DNA of 64,000 nucleotides from Bradyrhizobium sp. (GTDB lineage Bacteria; Pseudomonadota; Alphaproteobacteria; Rhizobiales; Beijerinckiaceae): assembly GCA_004799435.1 (NCBI GenBank), contig SSMV01000166.1, forward strand, positions 16,020 to 80,019, given 5' to 3'. The notes beneath the pieces were generated by a model. The model made no database searches. It was not told the DNA's origin and saw only the letters and a program-made list of their open reading frames with translations. A program made the position numbers and the translations under genes. Below are positions 21,000 through 35,214 of this stretch, one piece after another; within the stretch, counting starts at the first letter, position 1; the number at the start of each line of letters is the position of its first letter.

Positions 21000-21350
21000 T
21001 CAGTGGCGGCACTTGCTCGCCTGCGCGTCGAAGGCGATGCCGAGGAACGGCAGGAACGTCGAAGTCATCGCCTCCTGGCTCGACAATTCGCGACACTGGC
21101 TGTTCCAGATATAGGCCGCATTGACGATCACACTCGCGGTGCCGATGAGGATCGCGACAGCCGGCCAAGGCGACGAAGGATGCTGCGTCGGACAGGGGGA
21201 GCGGGGCGCCCCGCAGGTCACACCGATCGCGCTGCATACGGGAATGAACCCGCAGCCGAATGGCGGAAAAGCCTGCGCCGGGACAGTTGAAGGCCCCCAG
21301 AACGCGAGGCTGGCGGTCGCCAGCACGGCGACGATCCTGCGAAATCCCAT
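21000..21350 (-). CDS. Small secreted/membrane Cys-containing protein, tandem paralog A
   Basis: MGFRRIVAVLATASLAFW...VNAAYIWNSQCRELSSQEAMTSTFLPFLGIAFDAQASKCRH; near-identical C-terminus in paralogs B and C. Confidence 0.75.
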   Translation of the reverse strand: MGFRRIVAVLATASLAFWGPSTVPAQAFPPFGCGFIPVCSAIGVTCGAPRSPCPTQHPSSPWPAVAILIGTASVIVNAAYIWNSQCRELSSQEAMTSTFLPFLGIAFDAQASKCRH

Positions 21351-21463
21351 GTGGCCCCCAAATCTTTGCGCGAAGTCTTTCCACGCTTGCGCCGGCGAGC
21401 GGGCGTCGCGATGCTGGGAACGATGCGGTCGATTGGACGCGGCCTCCGTTTCCATCTCCGCGC

Positions 21464-21826
21464 TCAGTGGCGGCACTTGCTCGCCTGCACGTCGAAGGCG
21501 ATGCCGAGGAACGGCAGGAGCGTCGACGTCGCCGCCTCCCGGCTCGACAATTCGCGACACTGGCTGTTCCAGATATAGGCGGCGTTGACCATCACGCTGA
21601 CCGTGCCGACGAACACCGCGACCGGCGCCCATGGCGACGGCGCATGCCCCGGCGAACCATGGGTCAACATCGGCCCGCAGAAGGCGTAGGCCGTGTCGAC
21701 GGTTCGATATTGCACCTGGTTCGCGCCGCAAGTGACGATTGGAAGCGCCTTGACCGGAATGATCGACGGCGCCCAGAACGCAAGACTGGCAGCCGCCAGA
21801 ACAGCGAGAAACCTGCGAATGCGCAT
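21464..21826 (-). CDS. Small secreted/membrane Cys-containing protein, tandem paralog B
   Basis: MRIRRFLAVLAAASLAFWAPS...VNAAYIWNSQCRELSSREAATSTLLPFLGIAFDVQASKCRH. Confidence 0.75.
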   Translation of the reverse strand: MRIRRFLAVLAAASLAFWAPSIIPVKALPIVTCGANQVQYRTVDTAYAFCGPMLTHGSPGHAPSPWAPVAVFVGTVSVMVNAAYIWNSQCRELSSREAATSTLLPFLGIAFDVQASKCRH

Positions 21827-21864
21827 TGTTATCGCTCCTGCCTCGCCTTTTCCGCCGGCGCGGC

Positions 21865-22212
21865 TCAATGGCGGCACTTGCTCGCCTGCGCGTCGAAGGC
21901 GATGCCGAGGAACGGCAGGAAGGTCGAAGTCATCGCCTCCTCGCTCGACAATTCGCGACACTGACTGTTCCAGATATAGGCCGCGTTGACGATCACGCTG
22001 ACGGCGCCGACCATGATCGCGATGGCTGGCCAGGGCGACGAAGGATGCTGGGTCGGACAGGGCAACGGCGGGGTCGCATAGGCCGTGTCGATCGTTTGGT
22101 ATTGACCAACCAGCCCGCAGCCGACCGGCGCCGCTTTCATCGGAACGATCGAAGGCGTCCAGAACGCAACACTTGCGGTCGCCAACACGGCGACGATCCT
22201 GCGAAGTCCCAT
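21865..22212 (-). CDS. Small secreted/membrane Cys-containing protein, tandem paralog C
   Basis: MGLRRIVAVLATASVAFWTPS...VNAAYIWNSQCRELSSEEAMTSTFLPFLGIAFDAQASKCRH. Confidence 0.75.
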   Translation of the reverse strand: MGLRRIVAVLATASVAFWTPSIVPMKAAPVGCGLVGQYQTIDTAYATPPLPCPTQHPSSPWPAIAIMVGAVSVIVNAAYIWNSQCRELSSEEAMTSTFLPFLGIAFDAQASKCRH

Positions 22213-22318: not shown

Positions 22319-22693
22319 TCAACGCGACTCGGAGTCGCAGCCGCATGTCGAAGCCGCGGCGTCAGGTTTGCGCTCGCTTTGGAGCGCAAATGGCGCAAAC
22401 AGAGCCTCGGCCGCCTCGCGAGCGCCTTCCGGCGCGGTGATCGTGACGGCGATCACGTCCGCCCGCTCGCTGACTTCGAAATCGAGGAAGGCGCAGCAGA
22501 TCCGCTCGGCCTCGACCATTCGGCGGACGTCGTGAACCGCGGACGGGTCATAGGCGAGCGTGAGCCGGAGATCGTCTCGAACCGACATTCGCAGGGCGTG
22601 GCGATTGAGATCGGCGATCCAATCCGATCGCCGCTGGAAGCTTCCTATATCCAATGCACAGGCGATGGGCGCGGGTTCTGCGGTTTCGGGCAT
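22319..22693 (-). CDS. Small cysteine-rich protein divergent from a MerR regulator; function unknown
   Basis: ORF with ERICCAFLDFEV and C-terminal CGC; GGAGGAGG SD before ATG at 22693. Confidence 0.7.
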   Translation of the reverse strand: MPETAEPAPIACALDIGSFQRRSDWIADLNRHALRMSVRDDLRLTLAYDPSAVHDVRRMVEAERICCAFLDFEVSERADVIAVTITAPEGAREAAEALFAPFALQSERKPDAAASTCGCDSESR

Positions 22694-22738
22694 GATGACC
22701 TCCTCCGCCATCCTGGGGCTCGCCGGTGGCGCATAACC

Positions 22739-22769
22739 GCTCTACAAGTTAAAGTGACTTGAGGTTCAA
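22739..22769 (-). promoter_or_regulatory. MerR-type promoter/operator (TTGAAC-N19-TAGAGC with spacer dyad)
   Basis: Minus strand TTGAAC CTCAAGTCACTTTAACTTG TAGAGC; 19-bp spacer holds CAAGT-N7-ACTTG dyad. Confidence 0.65.
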
Positions 22770-22791
22770 GTCCCACGCTCGCGAGACGAAT

Positions 22792-23220
22792 ATGTCCGGA
22801 TACAAGATAGGCATTCTTGCCAAGCGCGCGGGCGCCAATGCGCCGACAATCCGTTACTACGAGCAGATCGGCTTGCTGCGACGCCCGGACCGCCAGGACG
22901 GTAATCAAAGACGCTACAGCGACGAGGATGTTGGGCGACTGACCTTCATTCGCCGCTGCCGCGCGTTTGGGTTTTCAATCGATCAAGTCCGAAGGCTCGC
23001 CGCCTTGGTCGAGGATCGGTCGCGCTCATGTGTCGAAGCGCGCGATATCGCGCAAGCCCACCTTGCCGAAGTTCGCGCCAAGCTGCGCGAACTCAGGGCG
23101 CTTGAAAAAAGCTTCGCGGGGTTCGTGGCCGATTGTGACGCCAAATGTGCCGGCGCACTCGGTCCCCAATGCGCCGTCCTTGACGAACTGTCGGTCAATG
23201 GTTCGACCGGAAAGCGCTAG
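22792..23220 (+). CDS. MerR family transcriptional regulator
   Basis: YKIGILAKRAGANAPTIRYYEQIGLLRRPDRQDGNQRRYSDEDVGRLTFIRRCRAFGFSIDQVRRL; three later Cys residues (CDAKCAGALGPQC). Confidence 0.92.
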   Translation: MSGYKIGILAKRAGANAPTIRYYEQIGLLRRPDRQDGNQRRYSDEDVGRLTFIRRCRAFGFSIDQVRRLAALVEDRSRSCVEARDIAQAHLAEVRAKLRELRALEKSFAGFVADCDAKCAGALGPQCAVLDELSVNGSTGKR

Positions 23221-31924: not shown

Positions 31925-32085
31925 CACGCGGCCTCTTCGCCTCGACGAAGAGGCCATCATTCGTCCGTTGAGATGGGAAGACAAGCCGAGGATTCTCTGG
32001 CCGAGGAGGCGACGCAACAAAACGTATATCTATTGTCTCGCCCCAGCATCATCGGCGGCCCAAGATGAGACCGGCCCGGCGTCGC

Positions 32086-32985
32086 TCATGACCAATTTAC
32101 CCACTCTCGGCACATGCCGATGCAGTCCTGAGCTTGAAAGCTTACTGTATTTTCAGTCAGCCGGAGGATTGCCGACTTCTCCGAATCCGTGAGATTGTAA
32201 GCAGTCGAGTAAATCGGCCTTCGCTTCTCGAGATTGGCAATGTCTAATCGTTCAACGTTAGTTCGATTGAAGCCGAACCCCATAAAGTAAATTTGCTCGG
32301 CTTCCCTAAGAAATTGCTTCGCAAGCGCAAATTCCGTATCGCGCCCGTCTTTGATATCTTCATGGATGATTTTGATACCCTTTATGCATCGCTCCAAAGA
32401 CTCCTTGGACAAATTCGGAGCAAATGGACGACTGTCGGGAGACTCCCACGGCAGGTATCCGAGACGGCCATGCAAGTGAACTACTGGAATACGGTTCATA
32501 ACAGCAAGGCAAGCGTCTGCGTCTTTGCCGTAGGAGTTCATGATCGACGTAAAAAGGAAGTGCTCTACGACTCGATCGTAATTAAAAGTAACAAAGCTTA
32601 CTTGGTTCTCACCAAATTCATCGAAAGTAGTGCTCATTTGGTTGTAGACGTATCTCAACCAATTCTGAGAATCATAACTGAACACCGTGGAATTCTGCTC
32701 GCGGGGAATAAGCACGGCGGCTATGGCAGCCTTCCCGATTTCCATGAAATTCGATCGGTGTTCAAGAAAGGCGTCGATCGAATTTTTGCCTGATTGGAAG
32801 AACGTCTCTCGGAAAAAGACGATCTCTCGCTCAGAGAAAAGGGAGAATTGCTGAAGCAGGTTGTAGGGGCCATTTCCCGGGTGCAACTGTGAGACGATTT
32901 GGTCCGAAAGCGCACTGCCGATGGGGAAATTAAAAGGCGCGCTTGCACCGGCTCCTAGTACGAAGACGGTCTTTTTCGTGAGCAT
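32086..32985 (-). CDS. SIR2-like domain protein, putative defence-associated NAD-binding/NADase protein
   Basis: TVFVLGAGASAPFNFPIGSALSDQI; VSFVTFNYDRVVEHF; VVHLHGRLGYLPW; IYFMGFGFNRTN; visibly lower GC than flanking genes. Confidence 0.75.
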   Translation of the reverse strand: MLTKKTVFVLGAGASAPFNFPIGSALSDQIVSQLHPGNGPYNLLQQFSLFSEREIVFFRETFFQSGKNSIDAFLEHRSNFMEIGKAAIAAVLIPREQNSTVFSYDSQNWLRYVYNQMSTTFDEFGENQVSFVTFNYDRVVEHFLFTSIMNSYGKDADACLAVMNRIPVVHLHGRLGYLPWESPDSRPFAPNLSKESLERCIKGIKIIHEDIKDGRDTEFALAKQFLREAEQIYFMGFGFNRTNVERLDIANLEKRRPIYSTAYNLTDSEKSAILRLTENTVSFQAQDCIGMCREWVNWS

Positions 32986-33103
32986 GGCCTCCCCCAAAAT
33001 GCGAATTGGGCCGTTGCCAAGGCGAATCGCGAGTTGCCTATCAAATATATGCCTGCAGGACGCGACACCCGTGCCAAAAGTAACCCATTTTCACGGGCCA
33101 CCC

Positions 33104-33132
33104 TTGACGCGTGTGGTGCACTCTCCTACTTA
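33104..33132 (+). promoter_or_regulatory. groESL promoter (TTGACG-N17-TACTTA), overlapping an RpoH-like CTTG...CCTACTTACG
   Basis: Exact -35/-10 spacing immediately upstream of CIRCE. Confidence 0.7.
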
Positions 33133-33143
33133 CGCGACAGCCA

Positions 33144-33170
33144 TTAGCACTCTTTATGAAGGAGTGCTAA
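33144..33170 (+). promoter_or_regulatory. CIRCE element (HrcA operator)
   Basis: Perfect TTAGCACTC-N9-GAGTGCTAA. Confidence 0.97.
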
Positions 33171-33229
33171 CAGAGGCCGTAGCGGCCCAATAAAAGGGCT
33201 TATTGCGCAACGAGATAGGAAGCTTCCCT

Positions 33230-33517
33230 ATGAAATTCCGTCCCCTGCATGACCGTGTCGTCGTCAAGCGCCTCGAAGGCGAGGAGAAGACGAAGGGCGG
33301 CATCATTATCCCCGACAACGCCAAGGAGAAGCCGCAGGAAGGCGAGATCGTCGCCGTCGGCCCCGGCGGGCGCGACGAAGCCGGCAAGCTGATCCCGATC
33401 GACGTCAAGAAGGGCGACAAGGTCCTTTTCGGCAAGTGGAGCGGCACCGAGGTCAAGATCGACGGCCAGGAGCTCCTGATCATGAAGGAGTCCGACATCA
33501 TGGGCGTTATCGCCTGA
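33230..33517 (+). CDS. groES: Co-chaperonin GroES
   Basis: [38 protein letters not shown]. Confidence 0.98.
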
Positions 33518-33552
33518 TCTTTCCTCGGAATTTGATCCCATTCGGCCGCTGA

Positions 33553-35214
<1,662 letters not shown>

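Follow-up and report, generated by a model that had tools for sequence, protein, structure and literature searches.

Small Cys-bearing membrane proteins under MerR control are familiar from the Mer-type mercury proteins MerT, MerC, and MerF. The three tandem genes described here, termed A, B, and C, resemble them in encoding predicted small Cys-containing membrane proteins beside a MerR-type regulator, but the products of A–C have one predicted membrane helix followed by a short helix, and the linkage to the regulator is not conserved. The Mer transporter profiles in Pfam and NCBIfam returned no match to A, B, or C at E values up to 10. In their evolution, the three copies recall the concerted evolution of prokaryotic paralogs (PMC6053082), in that similarity among copies within the same genome exceeds that to the nearest homolog, synonymous sites included; they differ in that the effect is confined to one part of the gene and that the pattern was seen in a single genome. 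Strings of nonidentical small-protein genes shaped by recombination between neighbors are also found among the tandem T7SS immunity genes of Firmicutes (PMC9484751). Compared with these, A–C belong to another phylum, no toxin or secretion locus was recognized with them, and no sequence relation is evident.

The array occupies the minus strand of the window (the whole 64,000-nucleotide stretch of Bradyrhizobium sp. DNA that was analyzed), where A (22212–21865; 115 amino acids, a predicted small exported one-helix protein), B (21826–21464; 120 amino acids), and C (21350–21000; 116 amino acids) are separated by gaps of 38 and 113 bases. A first-pass annotation of this DNA had described three consecutive minus-strand genes for proteins of 115–120 amino acids with a single architecture, and all three reading frames were found in that place. 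GC content is 0.80–0.82 at the third codon position vs. 0.54–0.60 at positions 1 and 2 in all three frames, and the similarity between copies ends abruptly at both the start (ATG) and stop codons. Together with the protein-level homologs found elsewhere, these features indicate that A, B, and C are genes and not chance frames. Each product begins with a predicted N-terminal export signal, which is followed by a variable Cys-containing loop, a single hydrophobic helix, and a tail that is nearly identical among the three. The near-invariance reported for the tails of A and C was borne out, with one difference in the last 44 residues (E in A and Q in C, after RELSS), and B differs from A and from C at 4 of the last 41 residues. 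The middle loops are, as claimed, unlike in length, sequence, and Cys placement, with two Cys residues in A, two in B, and four in C; the loop of B (FCG...HGSPGHAPS) is the most divergent, and the DTAYA motif present in A and B is missing from C. At the nucleotide level, a repeat finder recognized two repeat families, one with three copies formed by the 3′ 231 bases (79% and 86% identical to C) and another of 84 bases in the start region, leaving the middle as the variable part. The description of a fixed anchor with a diversified loop therefore holds for the tail and the loop, but conservation also extends to the first 20 residues (MxxRRxxAVLAxASxAFWxPS), both among A, B, and C and in the homolog L020, so the truly variable part extends only over approximately residues 28–58.

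The family was not recognized by the first-pass annotation, and library searches agree with that statement. No matches to A, B, or C were obtained in Pfam and NCBIfam at E values up to 10; PADLOC gave no match and PHROGs no credible one. A Pfam scan of ten relatives yielded no credible family, the weak matches being all below cut-off and mutually inconsistent, and a PDB sequence search returned designed helical proteins only, with no match to a natural protein. Plasmid and phage records contained no matching homologs, and a literature text search for the CRELTSQEA motif found nothing. The family nevertheless has a clear signature missed by the annotation libraries: a helix (often starting PWP) followed by xxCREL(T/S)xxEA, approximately 20 residues, and a Cys. 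In the recurrent layout, an N-terminal signal precedes a loop of 6–37 residues, the hydrophobic helix, the xxCREL[TS]xxEA motif, and a second Cys 25–31 residues further on. The same order of parts was seen in homologs from at least five genera, and the tail is the most conserved portion across the whole family.

Searches of sampled genomes with a core profile found homologs in at least 7 of 298 genomes of the taxonomic family and at least 7 of 398 of the order, counts that are lower bounds since a limited number of candidates was scored. A wider profile at E 0.01 raised the count for the order to at least 13 of 398; of the six matches gained in this way, five proved on reading to be nonmembers and the sixth (L040) is a candidate only. 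The only match listed for the phylum sample (399 genomes) was the genome of the array itself, and the class sample (387 genomes) added one further weak match. Occurrence is thus sporadic, at about 2% of the sampled genomes of the order. Seven weak genome matches (L007, L010, L037–L039, L041, and L042) were rejected as family members after reading; another, a 50-amino acid frame with the sequence HSRQCRELTTPEV (L058), is a candidate only. A contig scan of GTDB genomes identified two more homologs: L020, which is from a Xanthobacteraceae metagenome-assembled genome and shares 66% identity with A, and L021, from a proteobacterial one. A fourth paralog is present on another contig of the same genome (L004, 1363–1683; L057, 5326–5676); its loop, DKDWWWHHHHHHHF, includes a run of seven His residues (WWWHHHHHHH), and its tail reads NTQCRELTSQEAF...NNKCKHHA. 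It is located between GMP-reductase-like and ParA-like genes. A dihydrouridine-synthase-like gene follows 2 kb further along, and a gene of this type also lies near three distant homolog loci (L052–L054), which may be chance. Most members occur singly, in unrelated neighborhoods, and a tandem pair of distant homologs occurs in a distant genus (L009, 1034–1345 and 1465–1800). When the homolog loci were compared for a common neighbor gene, none spanned lineages. As judged from these searches, A, B, and C belong to an undescribed, sporadic family of small predicted envelope proteins that is almost confined to the order. The suggestion of an undescribed system is sustained as far as the family is concerned, but no recognizable system surrounds the genes and no neighbor is common to the lineages; the array represents an undescribed protein family, which is a genuine finding of modest weight, and does not amount to a system of a new kind.

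Divergence of the tail was compared with that of the rest of the gene, using L020, the nearest homolog and a putative ortholog, as the outside reference. The tail tracts cover approximately 45 codons up to the stop codon on the minus strand (21865–21999 in A, 21464–21598 in B, and 21000–21134 in C). In the tail, dS among A, B, and C is 0.12–0.21 vs. 0.48–0.69 to L020, so synonymous sites in the tail are not inherently fixed. In the signal and loop, dS between paralogs (0.38–1.40) is about the same as that between paralogs and L020 (0.66–1.24). Dividing the differences among the paralogs by those to L020 gives 0.35 for the tail and 0.93 for the remainder of the gene, or 0.31 and 0.87 when third positions alone are considered, and codon permutation reached the tail contrast in none of 5,000 trials (p < 0.0002). 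A GENECONV-style run-length test identified a run of matching polymorphic sites shared by B and C at alignment codons 86–98 (p = 0.00035); the same test was not significant for A–B or A–C on their own. The paralogs are therefore closer to each other than to outside homologs at synonymous sites in the tail only, and one pair shares a significant tract. Gene conversion is the simplest account of the homogenized tail, and the tails have probably been kept alike by recombination between copies; of the two origins offered by the first-pass annotation, this one gained support from the difference ratios and the run-length test. The array is a compact case in which half of a gene is homogenized between tandem copies and the other half is not.

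Two other histories could leave tails more alike than loops. An old triplication followed by purifying selection, with no exchange between copies, would fit the status of the tail as the most conserved part of the family, but the synonymous sites of the tail are homogenized among the paralogs and not toward L020, and this history is decidedly unlikely. Alternatively, A, B, and C could be recent duplicates whose 5′ halves were replaced from divergent alleles or homologs, generating the same mosaic. Separate sources for the 5′ halves would be consistent with the loop of B, which is identical to L020 at 19 of 39 positions, to A at 16 of 38, and to C at 8 of 39. No donor alleles were found, however, and conversion between existing copies is simpler, making replacement of this kind possible but rather unlikely.

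The remaining alternatives concern selection on the loop and the purpose of the array. The other origin proposed by the first-pass annotation, fast-evolving surface proteins, implies diversifying selection through contact with phage, predators, or a host. A variable loop between a signal and a membrane helix, with a differing number of Cys residues, is what such selection might produce, and the tandem pair in a distant genus points the same way. The pairwise estimates for the loop (dN 0.40–0.71 vs. dS 0.71–1.45) nevertheless give a ratio of approximately 0.5 in all three pairs and so do not point to positive selection, although the loop dS values approach saturation and the alignment there is uncertain. 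The loops of relatives are short, Gly/Ser-rich, His-rich, or Cys-containing, a variety that looks like relaxed constraint; the very short and Gly/Ser-rich examples, like the lack of a phage or plasmid homolog in the records searched, speak against diversifying selection, which is improbable. A related proposal, in which conversion keeps the tail uniform while the periplasmic loops vary, giving a self-diversifying envelope locus of sensors or binders that act through a common CREL tail, is very improbable. An array of orphan immunity proteins directed at secreted or membrane-active toxins would also comprise small membrane proteins encoded by successive, nonidentical gene copies that recombine with one another. 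No toxin gene was recognized beside A–C, however, most members of the family are single copies in unrelated neighborhoods, and the PADLOC and PHROG searches pointed to no cognate toxin or immunity family, so that an immunity function is very improbable.

The preferred explanation is that A, B, and C are tandem envelope paralogs subject to tail conversion and loop drift, with a metal or thiol role. Its structural and evolutionary part is likely, its functional part is doubtful, and the explanation as a whole is evenly poised. The protein would be exported via its N-terminal signal, placing the loop in the periplasm; residues ~61–80 would cross the inner membrane, followed by a turn and then by another, short helix formed by the CREL...C tail. 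The tail sequence would be spread by recombination between copies and held by selection, while the loop, under weak constraint, would drift. The likeliest role would be binding of a metal or thiol-reactive compound, in which the His/Cys-containing loop and the Cys pair of the tail would take part; additional copies would be retained for dosage or for their slightly different loops, and expression in this genome may depend on the MerR-type regulator upstream. Should the Cys pair and loop indeed bind metal, proteins now called hypothetical would gain a role.

AlphaFold modeling with a five-sequence input placed helices at residues 3–18, 61–94, and 99–113 around an unstructured loop, at low confidence (mean pLDDT 52); the core alone was modeled as two helices, also at low confidence (mean pLDDT 70). 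The tail Cys residues of A (85 and 113) flank the turn that joins the last two helices at roughly equal distances, and a hairpin in this model would bring them together. Counting of segments suggests that the loop is periplasmic, and the tail would be cytoplasmic if the helix spans the membrane. With helix 61–80 membrane-spanning, the tail Cys residues would be cytoplasmic and a stable disulfide is not expected. A Cys just before REL and a second at +25 to +31 are present in 15 of 18 full-length members. The exceptions, the two L009 copies and L024, come from one other taxonomic family and lack both tail Cys residues, having an alternative pair 10 residues before and 18 after the Arg; in the L009 pair, one substitute lies in the membrane helix and the other at +18. 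Because these exceptions form one clade, they probably reflect one event. His and Cys together constitute 9.6% of loop residues in 19 related members vs. 1.9% in eight other genes of the window, a comparison for which no significance is claimed. About half of the members have His/Cys-rich loops, and that of L017 is His-rich. The loops of 8 of the 19 contain neither residue, so metal binding by the loop cannot be general.

The neighbors of the array are argG, the MerR-type gene, and a DEAD helicase gene. Upstream of A on the minus strand, a gene for a 130-amino acid protein (22319–22711) with an ERICCAFL motif and a Cys-containing C terminus (TCGCDSESR) has no Pfam or NCBIfam match, and among 11 congeners it was found in this genome only. 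Its strand and 106-bp spacing suggest that it is possibly cotranscribed with A–C, its membership being uncertain. The divergent plus-strand gene (22789–23220) encodes a MerR-type metalloregulator for which the best models were CueR, CadR-PbrR, and MerR, all below cut-offs. The divergent intergenic region, which was also flagged as a stem, contains a possible MerR-type operator, ACCTCAAGTcactttAACTTGTAGAG (22740–22775, minus strand). The link of the regulator to A–C is uncertain. Conserved linkage of the family to a MerR-type regulator was not found across the homolog lineages, and since the linkage is not kept elsewhere, the metal or thiol role is only a lead.

The homolog in the congener G005 is flanked by argG and a pyruvate-kinase-like gene, with assembly joins nearby. 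This only copy in G005 has a two-N assembly join inside the gene, just after CREL (L056, 468–469), as expected if near-identical tandem tails had collapsed during assembly; it was left out of the tail comparison because the join lies within the gene. Elsewhere in the window, GC content falls to 0.547 over positions 32001–34000 vs. approximately 0.66. Within this stretch, a minus-strand gene (32086–32997) adjoining groES-groEL-like genes encodes a 303-amino acid SIR2-like protein with PADLOC SIR2 matches (best E 4e-11) and a Pfam SIR2_2 match below cut-off, and is possibly an acquired defense gene.
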